Part shown: positions 1,812 through 17,725 of the stretch, one piece after another
How positions within the stretch are numbered: position 1 is the stretch's first letter
Layout of the letters: each line of letters begins with the position of its first letter
Origin: a virus
IMG/VR virus record: IMGVR_UViG_3300041403_000146
Span: 1-40,983 of that record
Reading direction: 5' to 3' (one strand)
Length of the DNA stretch: 40,983 bases
Program-made: the position numbers and the translations under genes
The notes under the pieces: model-generated
Database searches by the model: none
Told to the model about the DNA's origin: nothing
What the model saw: only the letters and a program-made list of their open reading frames with translations

Positions 1812-3591
1812 GGAGTTTTCGCTAAGTAAGATGACAACCGAAGAGTACGTGCGTGACCCTCGGTTTGAAGTCATTGGGGTAGGTATAAAAGTCAACAATG
1901 GCCCGACTGAATGGGCGAGTGGGAGACACGATGAAATCAAAGACTATCTGGATACGTTTAATTGGGCAGACTCTATGGTACTCGCTCACAACACTATGTT
2001 TGACGGTGCTATTCTGTCTTGGCTTTTTGATGTTCGCCCTCGTGTCTGGGCTGATACATTGTGTATTGCTCGTGCATTACATGGGCTCAATGTTGGTGGA
2101 TCGCTTAAAGCTCTTGCTGTTAAGTACGGAATTGGGGAGAAAGGTGACGAGGTGGTCAATGCGCTAGGCAAAAGGCGTGCGGACTTCTCTGACTATGAAC
2201 TTGAAAAATACGGGGACTACTGCGTCAACGATGTAGAGCTAACCTATAACTTGTTTAAGATAATGGGACGAAACTTCCCGAAACAAGAACTGAGGTTAAT
2301 CGACCTGACCTTACGTATGTTCATCGAGCCTGTACTTGATCTGGACTTAGACTTACTAGAGCAACACATGTACAACGTCAAAAGACGTAAAGAGGAACTA
2401 CTCGAAACTGTAGCCGTAACTAAAAAGGAACTGATGAGCAACCAGAAGTTTGCGGAGTTGCTACGTGAGTTAGGTGTGACACCCCCGACTAAAGTCAGTA
2501 AGACCACAGGCAAGGAGACGTTTGCGTTTGCGAAGACCGACGAAGGTTTTGCCGCCTTGTTAGAACACGATGACGATAGGGTGCAGACATTGGCCACTGC
2601 AAGGCTTGGCACAAAGAGTACCCTAGAAGAGACGCGCACCCAGAGATTCATCGACATCGCCAATCGAGGTTTGCTACCTGTACCTGTACGCTATTATGCC
2701 GCACACACTGGGCGTTGGGGTGGCGATGACAAAATTAATCTGCAGAACTTGCCTAGTCGTGGACCTAACGGAAAGATGTTAAAGAAAAGCATCATAGCCC
2801 CAAAAGGTTACATGCTAGTTGACTGCGACTCATCACAGATCGAAGCCCGTGTACTTGCGTGGCTAGCAGGGCAGGACGACCTAGTAGAAGCGTTCCAAGA
2901 AGGTCGAGATGTATATAAGAAGATGGCGTCTGCTATCTATAACGTGCCAGAAGACGAGGTAACAAAAGAACAACGGTTCGTAGGTAAGACCACTATTTTA
3001 GGTTGTGGCTATGGCATGGGCGCAGTGCGGTTCCAAGATCAGCTAAAGTCATTCGGTACCGATATCGACGTGGATGAAGCGCGTAGGATTGTAGACATTT
3101 ACCGTAAGACAAATCACAAGATCAGTCAGTTCTGGAAGGACGCACAGCAGACTCTTGTAAACATGTCGCAGGGTCGTAAGTTCAATCTGGGCAAATCACT
3201 CGAAGTTGTGCCGGAAGAATATGCGATACGGCTACCGTCAGGATTACTAATGCGGTATGAGGACTTACAGTTCGAGCAGAACGAGAAAGGCTTGCAGTTC
3301 GATTACAAGACACGACGAGGCCGAGTAAAGATATACGGTGGAAAGGTTACTGAAAACGTGTGTCAGGGAATCGCAAGATGTATCATCGGCGAACAAATGC
3401 TAGCAATATCAAAGCGTTACCGCGTGGTTTTAACGGTGCACGATTCTGTTGTATGCTGTGTACCAGAAGACGAATTAACTGTAGCCCAAGGCTACATAGA
3501 GCAGTGTATGCGGCTCGTACCGAAGTGGGCAGAAGGTATGCCTATTAACTGCGAGTCTGGTGTTGGTAAAGCGTACGGAGATTGTGAGTGA
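1771..3591 (+). CDS. Family A DNA polymerase with 3'-5' proofreading exonuclease
   Basis: 606 residues, a compact T7-class replicative polymerase. The N-terminal DnaQ-like exonuclease is complete: D7/E9 in TIDFETYY, D78 in AHNTMFDGA, and Y150/D154 in YCVND. Polymerase motif A is VDCDSSQIEAR with catalytic D353 and E358. Motif B is GKTTILGCGYG with K406. Motif C is TVHDS with H557-D558. The residue matching E. coli Pol I position 762 is Leu410, not Phe or Tyr. The start is ATG after GGGAGAGAG and lies inside the zinc-ribbon gene. The stop overlaps the GTG of the nuclease gene. It replicates the phage genome together with the primase-helicase encoded downstream. Confidence 0.97.
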   Translation: MDLITIDFETYYDKEFSLSKMTTEEYVRDPRFEVIGVGIKVNNGPTEWASGRHDEIKDYLDTFNWADSMVLAHNTMFDGAILSWLFDVRPRVWADTLCIARALHGLNVGGSLKALAVKYGIGEKGDEVVNALGKRRADFSDYELEKYGDYCVNDVELTYNLFKIMGRNFPKQELRLIDLTLRMFIEPVLDLDLDLLEQHMYNVKRRKEELLETVAVTKKELMSNQKFAELLRELGVTPPTKVSKTTGKETFAFAKTDEGFAALLEHDDDRVQTLATARLGTKSTLEETRTQRFIDIANRGLLPVPVRYYAAHTGRWGGDDKINLQNLPSRGPNGKMLKKSIIAPKGYMLVDCDSSQIEARVLAWLAGQDDLVEAFQEGRDVYKKMASAIYNVPEDEVTKEQRFVGKTTILGCGYGMGAVRFQDQLKSFGTDIDVDEARRIVDIYRKTNHKISQFWKDAQQTLVNMSQGRKFNLGKSLEVVPEEYAIRLPSGLLMRYEDLQFEQNEKGLQFDYKTRRGRVKIYGGKVTENVCQGIARCIIGEQMLAISKRYRVVLTVHDSVVCCVPEDELTVAQGYIEQCMRLVPKWAEGMPINCESGVGKAYGDCE

Positions 3592-4260: not shown

Positions 4261-4551
4261 ATGCCATACAAGAACAAACCAAGACCGTACAAGAAAGAGT
4301 ACCAACAGCAGAAAGAGCGTGGTGAGCACTCAGATCGTATGGAACGCCAACGCGCTAGACGCGCAATGGATAAGACAGGCAAGGATGCCAACAAGAACGG
4401 TAAGGCTGACAAGCGTGAAGGCAAAGACGTAGCGCACAAGAAGCCATTAGCCCGTGGCGGCAGTAATAAGGATGGAGTTACTGTACAAAGCCGAAGTAAG
4501 AATCGTGCCGCAGGTGGAGCGATGAGTAAACCACCTCGACGCAAAAGGTAG
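4261..4551 (+). CDS. Small, very basic HNH-like protein
   Basis: 96 residues with very high Lys/Arg content. The C-terminal half reads GKDVAHKKPLARGGSNKDG followed by TVQSRSKNRAAGG. That is the core of the short HNH-like proteins of marine phages: (D)H-K-KPL-x-GGSN-x(n)-V-SRSKNR. The residue usually found as Asp before the His (DVDH) is Ala here (DVAH), so nuclease activity may be reduced or lost. The N-terminal half is a disordered basic region likely to bind DNA or RNA. It starts one base after the nuclease stop codon and ends directly before the structured leader at 4552-4735. Confidence 0.75.
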   Translation: MPYKNKPRPYKKEYQQQKERGEHSDRMERQRARRAMDKTGKDANKNGKADKREGKDVAHKKPLARGGSNKDGVTVQSRSKNRAAGGAMSKPPRRKR

Positions 4552-4570
4552 CCGATCCTCCCTCCGTGGC

Positions 4571-4605
4571 TACGTGCTGACTAGATGCACGTAAAACAAT
4601 CTAGT
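4571..4605 (+). promoter_or_regulatory. Possible H-type RNA pseudoknot
   Basis: TACGTGC (4571-4577) pairs perfectly with GCACGTA (4587-4593). ACTAGAT (4580-4586), which sits in that loop, pairs perfectly with ATCTAGT (4599-4605). The two 7-bp stems interleave with a 2-base first loop, no base between the stems, and an A-rich 5-base last loop (AAACA-type). This is the textbook topology of an H-type pseudoknot with coaxial stacking. The 5-base loop is at the short limit for spanning 7 bp. Interleaved DNA operators would be the other explanation. The element lies 126 bases before the helicase start codon. Confidence 0.5.
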
Positions 4606-4687
4606 AAGCTCAGGGTTGCTAACTCCAAATTCCCATGAAGCCGACCTAGCCCCATCGGTGAGCGAAGCGGGGCCACAAAATTACAAT

Positions 4688-4708
4688 ACACGGACACCGG
4701 TCTCGTGT
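4688..4708 (+). promoter_or_regulatory. Stable hairpin just upstream of the helicase ribosome site
   Basis: ACACGGAC pairs with GTC-T-CGTGT around an ACCG loop: eight base pairs with one bulged T at 4703. It ends 14 bases before AAGGAG. An alternative pairing of 4685-4690 with 4716-4721 overlaps it. This makes a switchable translational control plausible but not shown. Confidence 0.45.
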
Positions 4709-4735
4709 GATTTGCTGTATTAAGGAGAACATGTT

Positions 4736-6271
4736 TTGGATATTATCGACAACAAAGCTCTACTACTACGACTGCGAAACCCGCAGAAAGTAACGACGAT
4801 TATACCTAAGAGCAAAGAGCTTGCTGATAATAAAGTAATAGTTAATTGGGGGCTAGACGAAGTGCAAGTACTAAGGAATCTGGGGATCAACGCCCCATCA
4901 CCAATACGCGAGCGGTACAGTTGGTCAGGTAAATACAAACCGTTCGAGCATCAAAAGGACACCGCATCGTTTCTCACACTGAACCAACGTGCATTTTGTT
5001 TTAACGAGCAAGGTACAGGCAAGACCGCCAGTGCGATATGGGCGGCAGACTTCTTACTAAACCAAGGTCGGATCAACCGCGTGCTTGTAGTATGTCCACT
5101 GTCTATTATGGATTCAGCGTGGCGTAACGACTTGTTTAGCTTTGCTATGCACCGATCAGTTTCGGTGGCGTATGGCTCCGCGAAGAAACGCAAAGAGATA
5201 ATCGAACAAGGTAGTGAGTTCGTGATAATAAATTATGACGGGCTAGAGATTGTTCGTGACACTGTTGCAGAAGGTGGGTTTGACTTAATCATCGTGGACG
5301 AAGCAACACACTACAAAAATCCGCAGACCAAGCGATGGAAAGTACTGAACAGTTTGCTAAAACCAAACACTTGGTTGTGGATGATGACGGGTACCCCTGC
5401 CGCACAAAGCCCATTGGATGCGTACGGTCTGGCTAAACTTATTAATCCGAAAGCGGTACCACGGTTCTATTCTGCGTTCAGAGATCAAGTTATGTACAAG
5501 GTCACGCAGTTCAGATGGATACCCAAAGAGACTGCAACCGAGACAGTATTCAATGCGTTGCAACCTGCTATTCGATTCACCAAAGATCAGTGCCTAGACT
5601 TACCAGAAATGATTTATGTGAAGCGAGAAGTAGAACTTACCAGACAGCAGAAGAAATACTACGAAGACTTACGTAAGCACATGGCGATTGTAGCGGCAGA
5701 AGAGCAGATAACCTCAGCCAATGCCGCAGTCAACATGAACAAGCTATTGCAGTTGTCGTCCGGTGCACTCTACACCGATAAAGGAGAGGCAATAGAATTT
5801 GATATCAAGCACAGATACAACGTCTTGAAAGAAGTAATAGACGAAAGTAGCCAGAAGGTGCTTATATTTGTTCCGTTCAAACATGTTATAGACGTGCTAG
5901 TCGAGAAGCTAACCAAGGACAACATAACGTGTGCCGTCATACGTGGGGACGTACCTGCACCGAAGCGCACCGAGATATTTAAACGGTTCCAAGAACAGGA
6001 TGATCCAGAAGTGCTCGTGATCCAACCGCAGTCTGCCGCACATGGGGTAACACTAACTGCCGCAAACACCGTCGTGTGGTGGGGGCCGACTTCATCATTG
6101 GAGACATACGCACAGGCCAATGCTCGGGTACACAGGTCAGGGCAGACCCACAAGTGTACAGTGGTACAGCTACAAGGTTCGCCTGTAGAGAAACACATTT
6201 ACAAACTGTTAGACAACAGAATAGACGTTCACACAAAAATGATCGACCTTTACAAAGAAATAATTGACTAA
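4736..6271 (+). CDS. SNF2-type superfamily 2 DNA helicase/translocase
   Basis: 511 residues with both RecA-like lobes. Walker A is NEQGTGKT with K96. Motif II is VDEATHYKN with D188-E189, and motif III is MMTGTP. The second lobe carries IRGD, then QPQSAAHGVTLT, and motif VI QANARVHRSGQ with R464 and R467. This matches phage SNF2-like ATPases that translocate on double-stranded DNA and act in fork restart or recombination. The start is TTG: AAGGAG at 4722-4727 is 8 bases from it but only 3 bases from the out-of-frame ATG at 4731, which would give a 20-residue peptide. It follows the structured leader and sits beside the Cas4-like nuclease, a natural helicase-nuclease pair. Confidence 0.93.
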   Translation: MDIIDNKALLLRLRNPQKVTTIIPKSKELADNKVIVNWGLDEVQVLRNLGINAPSPIRERYSWSGKYKPFEHQKDTASFLTLNQRAFCFNEQGTGKTASAIWAADFLLNQGRINRVLVVCPLSIMDSAWRNDLFSFAMHRSVSVAYGSAKKRKEIIEQGSEFVIINYDGLEIVRDTVAEGGFDLIIVDEATHYKNPQTKRWKVLNSLLKPNTWLWMMTGTPAAQSPLDAYGLAKLINPKAVPRFYSAFRDQVMYKVTQFRWIPKETATETVFNALQPAIRFTKDQCLDLPEMIYVKREVELTRQQKKYYEDLRKHMAIVAAEEQITSANAAVNMNKLLQLSSGALYTDKGEAIEFDIKHRYNVLKEVIDESSQKVLIFVPFKHVIDVLVEKLTKDNITCAVIRGDVPAPKRTEIFKRFQEQDDPEVLVIQPQSAAHGVTLTAANTVVWWGPTSSLETYAQANARVHRSGQTHKCTVVQLQGSPVEKHIYKLLDNRIDVHTKMIDLYKEIID

Positions 6272-11166: not shown

Positions 11167-11190
11167 GCCCTAGCTTGCTAGGGCTTTTTT
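11167..11190 (+). terminator. Rho-independent terminator of the rightward unit
   Basis: GCCCTAG-CTTG-CTAGGGC followed at once by six T residues: a perfect 7-bp GC-rich stem and U-tract. It works on the plus strand only, because the other side has no T run. The T run reaches into the stop codon of the convergent 2178-aa gene, leaving no spare bases. Confidence 0.92.
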
Positions 11191-14100
11191 ATTCAAACCC
11201 ACTGCCAATATCTTCTAGCTTAGCTCGCAGGTTCGGGGATAACGTCACACCGTTGTACATAGTACGAGAAGTTTTCATGTGCTGAGCTATAGACCGCTGG
11301 ATTGTGCTCGGTGTAATAGCCGCTGTTGGATGCCTTCTGTTAAACGAGTTTATCTCTACTTGTGCAGCCCTAACACCCTGCGTATCACCAAACCGCAAAG
11401 CGACGTAGTATTGGCGTAGTAGCTTAGTACGCTTTTCGTTCACTGTTCGGTCGATACGCTTCAACACTTGGTTGCGCTCTTGGTTCCGAGTGTATTCGGC
11501 AGGTGCGAAACCTACAAACTGCGCGGCTAGGTCCCCTAGCGTTAGGTCGTCTAGTATTGGGTCTCCGCGACGAGTATTGATTGCGCCTTCGGTACCATAG
11601 CGGTATGTCTTAAAGGCGTTACGGAACGCTGAAGGTAGCATATTCTCTACGCCACGTTGCACTTCCCCGTTTAGGACATCTTGCGTACCGCGTATGAACT
11701 GCGAGGTATACCCGTAGAACGGACCGCCCAGTGTGCTGACAATCGTCTTCTCCATAGAAGGGTCGAAGTTGTATCGGTTAGACTGGAGTATCAGATTAGA
11801 CAAACCAACACGAGCCGCTACGTCCACACCAGTAATCTGATTGAGAAGCCCCTTATACATGCCCTCGCCTAAGTACTCACGAGCCAGAGTCTCTGCATCT
11901 TCCTCTTCGTCATCTAAGAACAAGTTAGCAATAAAGGCACCGATGCCGAAAAGGGTTAGCCCCTGCACGCCTGACATAAGTAGTACAGCTAAAGTTGTCC
12001 CGACTAACTGACGCTGTGCGATGCGGCGTACTTCTGGGTCAGACTCGGCCATCTTGATAGCTTCAAACGCGGTCTTAATCTGCGTGTAGTACATCTGTAT
12101 GCCGTAGGTCTTATACATCATAGCAACCCGACCAATATGCTTCTGAGCAATTCTCGGAGCTGTTGCTAGTACGGCACCGCCGTTGGTTTGTTGGGTTTCG
12201 TATAGTGCATTGTCTACTGCACGCGCCATCAGCTCTGCTTCAGAGAGATTAGTTTCGCCTTTGGACGCAAGCGGCTTTTCTTTTAGACGGGTAATTTCAT
12301 TTAAGAAGTTAGACACAAGGCTGACCTGACGGTTATGCCGTTCTACCGTATGGAAGCTAAACGCAGAGTACGCATTGATGCGGTCCCATACATTCTTAGC
12401 TTTACCTGACATTTCCGCACCGAGTGTATCGTAGAACATAGATCGGTTAAGTAGCCCACGGTCGCTAGCTTTCTGCACCAAGGGCATCATGGCTTCGACT
12501 AATTGACGCTTTGTCATACCGTTATAGAAATCGGCTTTGTCGTCTATGTCGATATCAGTCCGTATGCGGAGTACGCCATTCTCGTCTGCTTGGTAGTAGT
12601 TGTCGATAGAAGGCATACCGCGTACTAACTGGGTCTTATCTTTAGCGCCCATGATTGCTACGCGATGATTAAAACCACTGCCATTATATAACTTCATTGC
12701 CGCATACATGTTTTGCTGAGCTTGCTTAAAGCTCGTTCTCCCGGCCAGATATGGGAACACAAATAAAGGTAACTGTGACAAGTTAACGATAGCAGAAGAT
12801 ACGTTGAAGCCGATAGTACCTAAGAAAGCTACGCGGTTAGCTAAGCGTGCCGCTCGTGCAAACATATCCGTGGGTGGATTGATAGCAAACTCGCTACGTG
12901 CATCCCATTCTTCGATGATTACGTTCGCTGTAGTTGGATCAAGAGTAGTGTTCTTCTTGTTAGCTTCTGCTATAACCTCGGCGCGTAATTCTTCCATAGT
13001 AGCGCGTACATCTTTAGAGTACTTGAACTGTACTACCTGCCTACCAAGGTTATACGCCTTTTCTCTAAACGCAAACAAAGCGTTTGACTTGAATCCAAGT
13101 ACACCTTCCCGTTTTTGTAAGGCTTTAGCAAACGACGTAGCAGGTAGCATCTGCACAAATAAACGCATCGTATCGTCAATGACTTTGTTATCTACTTTGT
13201 TGGCTTGCATGATCTGGATAACCTGACCTACAAATGAAGTAGATGGCGCATCGTTAAACTTAGACTTGCTTAAGTCATTTACAGTTTCTATGTTTGTAGC
13301 ACCTGCGGCTTTCAATGCAGCGATCTGTCTATCTCGTGCCGCTAGGGTTTCAAACGCTTCAAAAGTGTACTCGCCATTAGGGTCGGTGTACTTCAACCAA
13401 TGGTCGCCTTTACGCACTAGGGGGAAGTACGGTTCGATGCGTTGTTTCGGGAATATGCCGAGGAATACTTTTCGCGCTTGCGGACCAAGATTAGTTTCGA
13501 TGCTTTCTACCAACTCGTCGTACATAGTTTTGTACGCATCACGCAACTGGGTGTACTGCTCTTGTCCATTCTTACCTAACGCTTTCCAATCTGCTTGCAG
13601 ACTATCCCACTTATTAGCTTTGTCGTCTTTGTAGTCGGATCTTGGTTTAGATGGATCGACTTCTTCTATGGTGCTATTAGCTACGAGACGGTCAAACGTT
13701 TCTGTTTTATCGGGATTGTTTTTACGCCAATCTTCTAACGACTTAGCTGTAGCGTCCAACCTCATGTCAGATCTGTTAGTGGCACCTTCTTGCTCTTCAA
13801 ATAGCTCGTGCAGTCGGTATGCTTTCTTAGATCCAGTTACTCTAGCAGTCTGATCTGCCGCTGCTTGAGATGGTAGAGAGGCGATTAGAAGTTTTTTACC
13901 TAGCGTAGGTACAGTGCCACGGAAGAACTCCGCAGTGTTGTCCATGAACTCACTTTCTTTAACTCGCTTAGTTGCTTTGGCGGCATTGGCGTAGCCTCTG
14001 CCCAAGTTGTTCATGAACCCGCCTATGGTACCTTCACTGGATACCATATATAACTCACCAGCATTTCGCAGGTTGGGAGCAGGTGCCATAATCGTCTCGA

Positions 14101-17100
14101 TCATAGCGTTCAAATTGTCATCAGTGAGTTTAGTCTGCGTTTCAGCACCGAACAGTTTTCGGAAGAAGTTGACGATGCTATTAAACGCTTTGCGTAACGC
14201 CGATACGTTACCTTCTTTTGGATAGACAAGGCTAAGCTCAGCGCGGAAGTCCGCATTAGTGTAGATCTCGGCTACAAACTCATCTAGTGACTGCGCTCCA
14301 TAATGTGTAGACAACTGGTCCTTCACATCGTCAAACAGTTTTTGTAGCTGTCTGGTTAGCGGATGCGACTTATTAGCCAACGTCGCAGAAGTTACGGCAT
14401 GAGTTGCTTCGTGTAGCAGTGTGTGAGCGTTTCCGGCGAGGTCGGAGTTTAGCTTTATCGTGTTGGTTTTCGGATCAAAAAGACCTGCAACCACGTTGCC
14501 TGAGCTGTCTTTAAGGTTCTTCTCCACAACAACTTTAGTAGAACCAATCTTATCTGCCAGCTTAGCAGCTGCTTTTCTAACTCTATTACTAACGCCTGTT
14601 TTACTGAGTGCATACAAAGCCCCCTGCAAATTACCTTCTTTAAGCATAGCCGACACAGCCGGATGCGTTTGCGTAGTGAGGTCTAGCACTGAGTCTTTGG
14701 TGAGCAATTTCTCAATGTTACCGCCTCTGGCTAAGAATGCTTCTACGTCACTTGCTAACGACTCACGCATTTTGTTGCGCTCTGCCGCAGACATTTCAGA
14801 AACTTCTTTAGTTTTTGCTGCACCTACTGTGGCTTCTAGCCCAGCGGCTAATTTATCTATGTCGGAAGAACTAGCAGTAAACTCGTTAAGCGCATCTATA
14901 TTTCGTTTGGCTGCAGCGGTTTCTTTTTCCGCTTTTGTTACTGCTCTATCTTTACGTAATGCGTCGGCAAGCGCTTGTTGTTCCGCAGCTTTGGCGGCTT
15001 CTTGCCTTTCTATAGACCGCTGATATGCTTTGTCAGCAAGTTTCTTCTGTGTGACAGCTTCGCGTATTTTGATATCAAGGTTGTTCTGTACAGACGCTGT
15101 TAAGTTCTTGTCTATCCACTGCTTGGCTTTCCGTGCGCTAGTAGCACCGGTACCTTCAAAGTGATTATCGACACGAGCGTTGCCGCTTTTAGTGTACCTC
15201 TCCATCTTGTTAGCAATGTCAAACGCAATAGCTTGCAGGGCGTCAACAGGACGTTGATAACGTCGAAAGTACATACCCGCTGCAAATTCTGGAGTAACTG
15301 CCTTTTTAGTTTCGGCTTTGTACTCCGGTAACGCTTTAATTTTCTTAGTGTCTGACTGCGGTAACGTAATGTTCAACACCGACATATCTAGTGGTCGACC
15401 TAATGTCGCATCGTATTTTGGTAGTGATTTTTCAGATACGCGGGTAAACGGTTTCTTTGGAGCCGTGGGCTTAGTCTTTAATGGAGCTGGCTTAGATCCT
15501 TTTCGTACAGTAGTAGCTGCAGTGTCAGGCTTACTAGCTCCCAATCCAGTTCGTCCAGTTCCTGCAGGTCGTTTGGCAGGTTGCTGTAGTGTAGTGGCTC
15601 CTCTTGCAGGTGCGCTTGGTACACTAGGCTTAGCGCCTTTTCCACTTGCTGCTGACTTAGTTTCGACAGGTTGAACATCTTGGTCTGCCTTTGCAATGAA
15701 GTCTTGTATCTTCTGCTTGGTATTAGCTTTAATCCTACTCGTTTTTGCGTAGTTGTCCAGAGCAGTTATTACCTGTTCTCGTTGCGCAGGATCGTTTAGA
15801 TCCTTACCAATAACTTCTTTGTATACAGGTTTAATCTTAGGGATGCTAAGTTCTCTTAGGTCTTTAGCAGTTACCGACCTACGTTCTGCTTTCGGTGCAG
15901 GTTGTCTAGCCACTTCGGGGGTAACTTCGGGGGTAACTTCGGGGGTGGACGGCTTAGTAGTTTTACTACCACGCTCGGGTATTAGCGCTTCCATCTCAGA
16001 AAGCTGTGCCGATTCAGGTGTTGTGGGTATTTGTTTGTTTTCTACAAACGCACGCTGCGCATTTACCGCACGTTGGATAGTGGCAGTTTCTTCAGGGGTA
16101 GGATCAGTTTTTTGTACCCCGTCCGCCGAAAGTGCTTCCTTGTAGGCTCGAATGACTTTGTTGTAGTTCTGACTCGGAGTGCTCTCTATTACATCCAAAA
16201 GAATGTTTCTGCGGCGCTGTTCTGTAGCACGTTGTTGAGCGCTTACTTGCCGTCCTGTAAGAGATTCAATCTCCGATTCCATACGCATAGCTTCGTCTTC
16301 AGCTACCATACGTGCTAGTTCGGTTTCGTTTTCTGCCCGTGTTACTAGGTCGAACTGTCTGCTTCTTAACTCTGCGCTATCCCTAGCCGCGGGCATTGCA
16401 TCTACTGCATCAGGTGCAGTTGGTCCTTGGAACCGCTCTCTATCTCTAAGAAGTTCTACAGGGAATAAGTCAGGTTGCCCGAACGCAGCTTCATCTCCAC
16501 GTTCTGCAGCGGCAAGTGCTAGTTGTTCTTGGGCAGGGGCGACAGCGGCATCCGCACGGCGTCTGTTTAGTTCTCGTTCTACTCCTGTTATATCGAGGTC
16601 GCCCATCTGCGCTTCTTCTCGCGCAACTCGTTGAATAGCTTCTAATCCCTGTGCGAGTTGTTCTTGGCGCTGATCTTCAGCTGCTTTGGCTTCTTGTTCT
16701 TGACGTAATCTTTCTTCTCGTAAAGCTTCGGTATTACGCTCTACACCACGTAGAGCTTCTGGGGGCAAAGTGTCGCTAAGGGCGGTTTCACGTAAATTCT
16801 CATAATCGCTTTCTGACGCCGCTTGCCCTTCTGGAGTAACGATCATTCTAGGAGCAGGTAATGCAAGTATCTCTTCGGCTTGGTCTTGTGCATCAGCTAC
16901 TGCGGCATCACGAGGTTTTCCGGGGAGGAACAACCCAAGTAGTGCACCTGCAAACGCCCCTATACCACCTTCTTCGGCGGCACCATCTAATAAAGTTTGA
17001 TCTGGGTTGTACCCCTGCTCGATAGCATTTTGTAGTACAGCAGCTGTAGCTTCCTGCGCACCTTCAATACCACCTGTTACCGCAGCGTTTCGTACCCTGT

Positions 17101-17725
17101 CTCTAAACTTATTTACTGTAGCGGGGCCGAGTTTGTTCACCATGTCGGTTAAGACGGGTACGCCTAGTCTAGACACGAATCGACCAAGTGGAAGTATTTC
17201 GGTTGTACCAACTAAGGCACCTTTTAGAGCGGCGGCACCACGATCTTCTTCAGATATACCTGCGGCACGAGCACGTTCACTAGCTTCACCAGCACCAGCA
17301 CCGACGGCCAAAGCACCAGCGGCAGGTAGCGCGGCAGGACCAAGCGCAGCTGTACCCAAGAACGCGCCGAGAGAACCGACACCGCTAGCTAGCTTATAAG
17401 AAAGGTCTTCTGCTCTACCACCTTCAGGACGAACGGCTTCAGCGGCACCTTTGATAGCTTCTCTTGCAGCAAGCTCATTTTCTTCGTCAAGTAGTGTTGC
17501 GGCACCTAACGCGGCAGACTCAAGAGTCCCTACTGCACCTGCGCCGAGACCGGATAGGATGTTCTCAAGCATACCAACGTCACGGTTAGCCATGAAACGT
17601 TCGACATCTTGATCTATCTCTATTTGCTTCTGTACAGCCGCAATTACTTGTGCATCTGTGGCACCTTCTGGGCCTTCTACTTCATAGACCTTGCCATTGG
17701 GCCCAGTAACTTCATAGAGTGCCAT
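11189..17725 (-). CDS. Giant 2178-aa internal virion / polyvalent protein with zincin motif
   Basis: The N-terminus (about 1-35, with YEVEGPEGATDAQVIAAVQ) is a short module common in phage virion proteins. Residues 50-270 hold several Ala/Gly-rich amphipathic or membrane-like stretches (SLGAFLGTAALGPAALP, GGIGAFAGALLGLFLP). Residues 290-560 are charged and coiled, 560-780 a Pro/Thr/Lys linker. At 1105-1109 the motif HEATH is followed by DEFVAEIYT, the HExxH...E pattern of zinc metallopeptidases in large polyvalent phage proteins. The remaining 1000 residues are helical with a membrane-like segment near AVLLMSGVQGLTLFGIG. Probably an ejected internal protein carrying a protease. Last gene of the leftward unit, AAGAGGT before its ATG. 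Confidence 0.85.
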   Translation of the reverse strand: MALYEVTGPNGKVYEVEGPEGATDAQVIAAVQKQIEIDQDVERFMANRDVGMLENILSGLGAGAVGTLESAALGAATLLDEENELAAREAIKGAAEAVRPEGGRAEDLSYKLASGVGSLGAFLGTAALGPAALPAAGALAVGAGAGEASERARAAGISEEDRGAAALKGALVGTTEILPLGRFVSRLGVPVLTDMVNKLGPATVNKFRDRVRNAAVTGGIEGAQEATAAVLQNAIEQGYNPDQTLLDGAAEEGGIGAFAGALLGLFLPGKPRDAAVADAQDQAEEILALPAPRMIVTPEGQAASESDYENLRETALSDTLPPEALRGVERNTEALREERLRQEQEAKAAEDQRQEQLAQGLEAIQRVAREEAQMGDLDITGVERELNRRRADAAVAPAQEQLALAAAERGDEAAFGQPDLFPVELLRDRERFQGPTAPDAVDAMPAARDSAELRSRQFDLVTRAENETELARMVAEDEAMRMESEIESLTGRQVSAQQRATEQRRRNILLDVIESTPSQNYNKVIRAYKEALSADGVQKTDPTPEETATIQRAVNAQRAFVENKQIPTTPESAQLSEMEALIPERGSKTTKPSTPEVTPEVTPEVARQPAPKAERRSVTAKDLRELSIPKIKPVYKEVIGKDLNDPAQREQVITALDNYAKTSRIKANTKQKIQDFIAKADQDVQPVETKSAASGKGAKPSVPSAPARGATTLQQPAKRPAGTGRTGLGASKPDTAATTVRKGSKPAPLKTKPTAPKKPFTRVSEKSLPKYDATLGRPLDMSVLNITLPQSDTKKIKALPEYKAETKKAVTPEFAAGMYFRRYQRPVDALQAIAFDIANKMERYTKSGNARVDNHFEGTGATSARKAKQWIDKNLTASVQNNLDIKIREAVTQKKLADKAYQRSIERQEAAKAAEQQALADALRKDRAVTKAEKETAAAKRNIDALNEFTASSSDIDKLAAGLEATVGAAKTKEVSEMSAAERNKMRESLASDVEAFLARGGNIEKLLTKDSVLDLTTQTHPAVSAMLKEGNLQGALYALSKTGVSNRVRKAAAKLADKIGSTKVVVEKNLKDSSGNVVAGLFDPKTNTIKLNSDLAGNAHTLLHEATHAVTSATLANKSHPLTRQLQKLFDDVKDQLSTHYGAQSLDEFVAEIYTNADFRAELSLVYPKEGNVSALRKAFNSIVNFFRKLFGAETQTKLTDDNLNAMIETIMAPAPNLRNAGELYMVSSEGTIGGFMNNLGRGYANAAKATKRVKESEFMDNTAEFFRGTVPTLGKKLLIASLPSQAAADQTARVTGSKKAYRLHELFEEQEGATNRSDMRLDATAKSLEDWRKNNPDKTETFDRLVANSTIEEVDPSKPRSDYKDDKANKWDSLQADWKALGKNGQEQYTQLRDAYKTMYDELVESIETNLGPQARKVFLGIFPKQRIEPYFPLVRKGDHWLKYTDPNGEYTFEAFETLAARDRQIAALKAAGATNIETVNDLSKSKFNDAPSTSFVGQVIQIMQANKVDNKVIDDTMRLFVQMLPATSFAKALQKREGVLGFKSNALFAFREKAYNLGRQVVQFKYSKDVRATMEELRAEVIAEANKKNTTLDPTTANVIIEEWDARSEFAINPPTDMFARAARLANRVAFLGTIGFNVSSAIVNLSQLPLFVFPYLAGRTSFKQAQQNMYAAMKLYNGSGFNHRVAIMGAKDKTQLVRGMPSIDNYYQADENGVLRIRTDIDIDDKADFYNGMTKRQLVEAMMPLVQKASDRGLLNRSMFYDTLGAEMSGKAKNVWDRINAYSAFSFHTVERHNRQVSLVSNFLNEITRLKEKPLASKGETNLSEAELMARAVDNALYETQQTNGGAVLATAPRIAQKHIGRVAMMYKTYGIQMYYTQIKTAFEAIKMAESDPEVRRIAQRQLVGTTLAVLLMSGVQGLTLFGIGAFIANLFLDDEEEDAETLAREYLGEGMYKGLLNQITGVDVAARVGLSNLILQSNRYNFDPSMEKTIVSTLGGPFYGYTSQFIRGTQDVLNGEVQRGVENMLPSAFRNAFKTYRYGTEGAINTRRGDPILDDLTLGDLAAQFVGFAPAEYTRNQERNQVLKRIDRTVNEKRTKLLRQYYVALRFGDTQGVRAAQVEINSFNRRHPTAAITPSTIQRSIAQHMKTSRTMYNGVTLSPNLRAKLEDIGSGFE
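15913..15946 (-). repeat. 12-bp tandem repeat coding for TPEV units
   Basis: The unit CTTCGGGGGTAA occurs twice and a third time in part. On the coding strand it gives PEVT-PEVT-PEV in the linker of the 2178-aa protein. It is a likely site of length change by slippage. Confidence 0.7.

Follow-up and report, generated by a model that had tools for sequence, protein, structure and literature searches.

A conserved double-pseudoknot RNA element in the replication operons of uncultured phages

Results

A double-pseudoknot RNA among phage replication genes

Positions 4571-4675 of the window (the whole stretch analysed, i.e., the 40,983 nucleotides of IMG/VR virus record IMGVR_UViG_3300041403_000146) almost certainly encode a member of a genuine conserved family of structured RNAs, as judged from the substitutions that separate its relatives. 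The element spans about 105 nt and consists of two pseudoknotted domains in series, P1/PK1 followed by P3-P4-P5/PK2 (Table 1). In the second domain, P3 closes a junction that holds P4 and P5, and the loop of P5 pairs 3' of P3 to form PK2. The original prediction had described the 5' third of this element as an H-type pseudoknot in the leader of a helicase gene. The observation itself is confirmed and enlarged by the second pseudoknot, and its interpretation as an RNA leader is partly supported.

Table 1. Features of the element and of its surroundings in the window.
Feature	Positions	Strand	Basis or remark
Upstream gene, small basic HNH-like protein, phrog_4590, 96 aa	4261-4551	+	profile match
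Candidate anti-Shine-Dalgarno hairpin TAGCC/GGCTA, C-rich loop CCTCCCTCC (4557-4565)	4549-4572	+	sequence
P1, 5' strand TACGTGC	4571-4577	+	pairs with 4587-4593; 3 pairs with changes on both sides among relatives
PK1, 5' strand ACTAGAT, in the P1 loop	4580-4586	+	pairs with 4599-4605
P1, 3' strand GCACGTA	4587-4593	+	covariation
A-rich loop AAACA	4594-4598	+	site of an extra hairpin, P2, in most relatives
PK1, 3' strand ATCTAGT	4599-4605	+	covariation
P3, 5' strand GCTC, closes the 3' domain	4608-4611	+	pairs with 4660-4663
P4 hairpin GGG...CCC	4613-4634	+	sequence; variable in relatives, outside the covariation count
P5, 5' strand CCGA	4641-4644	+	pairs with 4655-4658
PK2, 5' strand TAGCCCC, in the P5 loop	4647-4653	+	pairs with 4669-4675, one mismatch in the window
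P5, 3' strand TCGG	4655-4658	+	covariation
P3, 3' strand GAGC	4660-4663	+	covariation
Conserved spacer GAAGC	4664-4668	+	sequence conservation in relatives
PK2, 3' strand GGGGCCA	4669-4675	+	covariation
Second leader hairpin ACACG GAC ... GTC T CGTGT	4688-4708	+	fold, -9.6 kcal/mol
Shine-Dalgarno AAGGAG and TTG start of the helicase	4722-4738	+	start position agrees with relatives
Downstream gene, SNF2-type DNA helicase	4736-6271	+	PF00176 2.7e-22; phrog_62 1.7e-114

The two perfect, interleaved 7-bp dyads that drew attention to this site are the P1 and PK1 stems, and their loops (TG, none and AAACA) have the 2, 0 and 5 bases initially reported, the last being A-rich. Such a pair had been thought unlikely to arise by chance, and the counts agree: when the whole window was scanned for interleaved perfect 7-bp stems of the same geometry, the only occurrence on either strand was one on the + strand, and 60 simulated windows (first-order Markov copies of the window) contained none. 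The 5-bp version of this arrangement is expected about once per window and the 7-bp version about 0.004 times, the latter value being extrapolated from the fall-off across 3, 4 and 5 bp. The gap of 184 bases and the TTG start are also present, and in the minimum-energy fold of the leader one pairing extends to the ribosome site, as had been described. The whole leader shows no unusual stability in this fold relative to shuffles (z -0.34), so that stability alone would have missed the element.

The structure is maintained by compensatory changes

If the dyads form RNA stems, homologues should carry compensatory changes in both of them, and they do so abundantly. Among 33 distinct sequences, 95.1% of the P1+PK1 cells are paired, against 24-43% in controls with a slid register, and both sides differ in 68 cells, compared with 18 in shuffles (the cells are not independent, because the sequences are related). 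The 3' domain gives a similar picture in 33 distinct sequences: 91.4% of the P3+P5+PK2 cells are paired, against 36-45% in the slid registers, with 49 cells changed on both sides against 15 in shuffles. All five counted helices (P1, PK1, P3, P5 and PK2) thus stay paired via compensatory changes. Such changes on both sides affect five of the eight family pairs of PK1 and four pairs of PK2. P3 occurs as GUUC/GAAC, GUCC/GGAC, GCUC/GAGC, GCCU/AGGC and GCCA/UGGC, and P5 as CCGA/UCGG, CAGA/UCUG, CGGA/UCCG and CUGA/UCAG.

Alignment A3 was built by excising segments by rule and then joining them. The register of P1 was picked by pairing, so its 100% pairing is partly built in, and the outer AU[C/U] of PK1 served to place the segment, so that the evidence for this helix is carried by the other five pairs. 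In alignment A2, four rows are off by one base at P3.

At paired sites, G-U exceeds A-C by 51 to 22, which points to an RNA made from the + strand. The same ratio argues against the dyads functioning as DNA, i.e., as a replication origin, a recombination site or a site bound by a regulator, as do the constant orientation of the element relative to the operon and the fact that compensations restore pairing rather than a fixed sequence. The location among replication genes, adjoining an HNH-like gene, would suit a role of this kind, which we consider most improbable.

R1, a covariance model built on the 3' domain, matches the window at 4598-4676 with 76.6 bits and reveals no further copy above chance in the window, where there is otherwise an 11-bit chance match only. 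Conservation extends to unpaired bases: in the spacer region, CGAA is invariant and the next G and C are nearly invariant among 33 relatives. A compact pseudoknotted fold with invariant unpaired bases is reminiscent of several small ribozymes, and a self-cleaving RNA could process the polycistronic message. This is very unlikely given that we found neither a match to a ribozyme of Rfam at E up to 10 nor a recognisable cleavage site. The loop between P1 and the PK1 3' strand varies: most relatives carry the hairpin P2 there, and the small clade of the window is devoid of P2 and has a C-rich stretch directly 5' of P1 instead.

The element is probably new, and is stably inherited

A pattern search of IMG/VR with the 3' half of the element retrieved at least 119 viral stretches. 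The same pattern matched two GC-rich actinobacterial contigs among the GTDB genomes; since both lack the 5' domain, we took them as chance matches, leaving no credible bacterial copy. A blastn search of isolated phages with two elements returned chance pieces only, and looking for members whose PK2 is composed differently yielded one unrelated coding match. Rfam 15 at gathering score gave nothing credible on the window or on eight relatives, and with three elements alone at E up to 10 it gave only weak matches, far below the gathering scores. We found no report of the element in the literature (open-licence papers, titles and abstracts of matches). The suggestion that it might be new therefore holds with respect to Rfam 15, and the double-pseudoknot element probably defines a new family of structured RNAs in uncultured phages. 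The structured control RNAs known in phages come mostly from cultured models, e.g., T4 and lambda; here, an architecture that is absent from Rfam is carried by all these stretches of uncultured-phage DNA.

There is normally one copy per record. For the clade of the window we found ten contigs, of which five have tandem copies 109 nt apart; in the cut-out segments the P1 stems of the two copies differ yet both pair (CGUGU/GCACG and AGUGU/GCACU). On the helicase tree, the presence of the element requires 4 changes, against 24.5 in shuffles, and falls into three groups (L025, which seems to lack it, is a truncated contig). The element is thus inherited stably in three helicase clades, and so few changes rule out frequent mobility. 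Of the close relatives examined, more than half lack it, and these often have nearly no gap at the site. Structured-looking stretches with no clear element occupy the same site in three genomes (L016 at ~3480-3560, L077 at 3494-3565 and L036, 5' of the helicase). Some of them resemble P5/PK2 followed by a T run, with cmsearch E-values of 0.02-0.9 for L077 and L016, and these stretches are possibly distant members.

The element has two genomic contexts

Nearly all distinct copies (87 of 88) lie 3' of the basic HNH-like gene and/or 5' of the helicase, in the same direction. As far as the contigs extend, the gene order is polA - exonuclease - HNH-like gene - element - helicase; IMG/VR contains hundreds of relatives of this helicase. 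In some genomes (L069, L010) the stop codon UGA of the upstream gene is inside the PK1 loop. Readthrough from the upstream gene was ruled out, because the frame beyond its stop codon closes again soon. In compact genomes (L033, L010, L144), PK2 ends only a few bases 5' of the Shine-Dalgarno, and in some relatives there are about 100-200 nt extra between the element and the gene start. Short tandem repeats of the TTATTCAG type occupy the element-helicase spacer in L130, L160 and L173. In several lineages, a gene inserted between the element and the helicase occupies the place behind the element. In L039, L099, L101, L132, L144 and L151, this gene encodes about 137-152 aa and looks by eye like a putative nuclease (VEIKTR motif).

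The second context is that of L100, L178, L198 and L199, contigs that are near-copies of one phage. Their element lies 3' of the stop codon of a DUF927 primase, a convergent HNH-like gene follows about 4 nt further on, and the helicase has no element in front of it. Since the element here comes last in the replication operon, it is not always a leader. The earlier description as a structured leader of the helicase thus stands for the RNA, through covariation, and for the position in the main clade; it does not extend to the genomes where another gene comes between element and helicase, as is often the case, nor to the L100 type. Neither in the window nor in L100 did the site of the element show an intrinsic terminator or a sigma-70 promoter (for promoters the test is weak).

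In both contexts, the element has the phrog_4590-type gene as a neighbour, in one of them with the relative orientation reversed. Its product in the window is rich in Lys and Arg, and the relative in L100 (6882-7133) weakly matches HNH endonuclease families. HEARO, or omega RNA, is the RNA of IscB, and IscB-type proteins carry RuvC and HNH domains. Our element resembles this RNA in being structured and in adjoining an HNH-like gene; in contrast, the neighbouring basic protein has about 80-120 aa, which is too small for the RuvC domain of IscB (in the window's 96-aa neighbour we found no RuvC match), it is just as present in phages that lack the element, and there is no match to Rfam.

The L100 context also bears on whether the element acts in trans. 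A small RNA or decoy freed from the operon transcript could act on a target of the host or of the phage, e.g., a host defence or RNA-binding protein, and this would fit a self-contained fold that is kept where no gene follows it and that is present as a rule in one copy per record, sometimes in a tandem pair. Yet the place between cistrons is fixed in the main clade, with close abutment to the Shine-Dalgarno, and no promoter-like site was found (again a weak test). We regard this possibility as rather improbable.

Hairpins near the core and possible control of the downstream gene

We see about an even chance, higher than for any rival explanation, that the element acts in cis, in the transcript of the replication operon, to control the gene that follows it. 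Comparison of sequences establishes the fold of the element, the selection acting on it, its position and its strand. In the mechanism that we propose, the element would be transcribed as part of the replication operon mRNA, and its compact core would bind a factor, perhaps a protein, from the phage or from its host, or else a small ligand. The folding state of the core would then set whether a CUCC hairpin masks the Shine-Dalgarno of the next gene; the candidate masking hairpin is in the P1-PK1 loop of many relatives and directly 5' of P1 in the window. The controlled gene would usually be the SNF2 helicase, and sometimes the gene inserted before it, and the controlled step would be translation.

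Several observations bear on this proposal. Where the helicase is displaced, it is the inserted gene that the element precedes, which favours control in cis, whereas the L100 type offers no co-directional downstream gene to control. The short distance from PK2 to the Shine-Dalgarno in compact genomes, the near absence of a gap in element-free relatives, the stable inheritance and the intact P1 stems of tandem copies also speak for it, and the extra 100-200 nt of some relatives speak against it. Counted per sequence cluster of P2 hairpins, CUCC occurs in 7 of 14 clusters against 1.4 expected, and CCUCC in 5 against 0.45, in a post hoc test of a motif that was noticed in the same data. In L092, the next gene has a GAGAGA-type Shine-Dalgarno and P2 carries UUCUCUCU (p 0.007). 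The position 5' of ribosome sites, the CUCC hairpins and this match together suggest that translation is gated by Shine-Dalgarno masking. Overall, the complementarity of P2 to its own Shine-Dalgarno is weak (Fisher p 0.018; -8.3 kcal/mol for the own site and -8.0 for those of other clusters), and L180, which belongs to the window's clade, has CCCC in place of the CUCC motif. Because of these two points and of the post hoc nature of the motif test, we do not put control in cis any higher. The candidate hairpin of the window spans the stop codon of the upstream gene.

A broader reading, which we hold as tentative and on the unlikely side, makes the element a new class of phage RNA, a portable receptor with two pseudoknots. 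It would respond to a factor that reflects the state of replication, either a phage protein or a nucleotide, and would act as a translational switch inside the replication operon and, in other phages, as a 3'-end module of that operon. If the core does bind a replication protein or a nucleotide, the element would be part of a phage control circuit for the supply of the replication helicase. The natural variants of the element suffice for clean mutate-and-restore designs.

Comparison with known RNAs

SAM-II and the preQ1 classes are translational riboswitches with pseudoknots. The element is similarly a compact pseudoknotted RNA 5' of a Shine-Dalgarno, in tandem in one clade. It differs in that no metabolic gene lies downstream, the genes suggest no ligand, nothing in Rfam matches, and it is placed inside an operon, once at the operon end.

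In arrangement, the closest system is the translational operator of T4 gene 32, an H-type pseudoknot bound by gp32. There, the pseudoknot lies 5' of the Shine-Dalgarno and overlaps the upstream homing endonuclease frame segG, and UUAAA/UAAA repeats separate it from the start codon (PMC535899). Both are intercistronic pseudoknots that precede the Shine-Dalgarno of a replication gene. Still, we found no sequence relation between them, and the element does not belong to the T4 gene 32 operator family: it has two pseudoknotted domains in about 105 nt, against one of about 28 nt in T4, the repeats are missing (4676-4735 contains one UUAA and no UAAA), and the gene downstream encodes an SNF2 helicase rather than a single-strand binding protein.

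The 3' domain recalls the exonuclease-resistant RNAs of mosquito-borne flaviviruses, in which a hairpin loop of a three-way junction pairs downstream of the junction (PMC5760640). The likeness is one of topology only, with covariation here for P3, P5 and PK2 and with P4 visible outside the count; the sequence is different, there is no Rfam match, the carrier is a DNA phage, and a 5' pseudoknot is added. This topology is among the arguments for a module of mRNA processing or stability, in which the pseudoknotted block would halt exonucleases or mark a cut, allowing separate levels for the flanking genes. Such a module would fit an element that follows the upstream gene at its 3' end in either context and that, in L100, forms the 3' UTR of the entire replication operon. 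If the element blocks nucleases, it would provide a DNA-phage parallel to the viral exonuclease-resistant RNAs. However, the unpaired bases are more conserved than a simple roadblock needs, most of the close relatives do without the element, often with no gap at the site, and no family of this kind is matched in Rfam. We therefore judge this explanation unlikely.

Further observations

The second leader hairpin of the window has a CACG/CGTG stem that is changed to CGCA/TGCG in L180. Hairpins with a GACACC-type loop shortly 5' of the Shine-Dalgarno are found in many of these phages, including those without the element, e.g., at 4688-4708 in the window, 3940-4000 in L019 and 3566-3610 in L077. 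In L016, L036 and L077 they are followed by a T run and look like intrinsic terminators. Elsewhere in the window, the - strand encodes a protein of 2178 aa (11189-17725) with a match to a DarB-like antirestriction family in its C-terminal third (phrog_10089, 1.2e-54).
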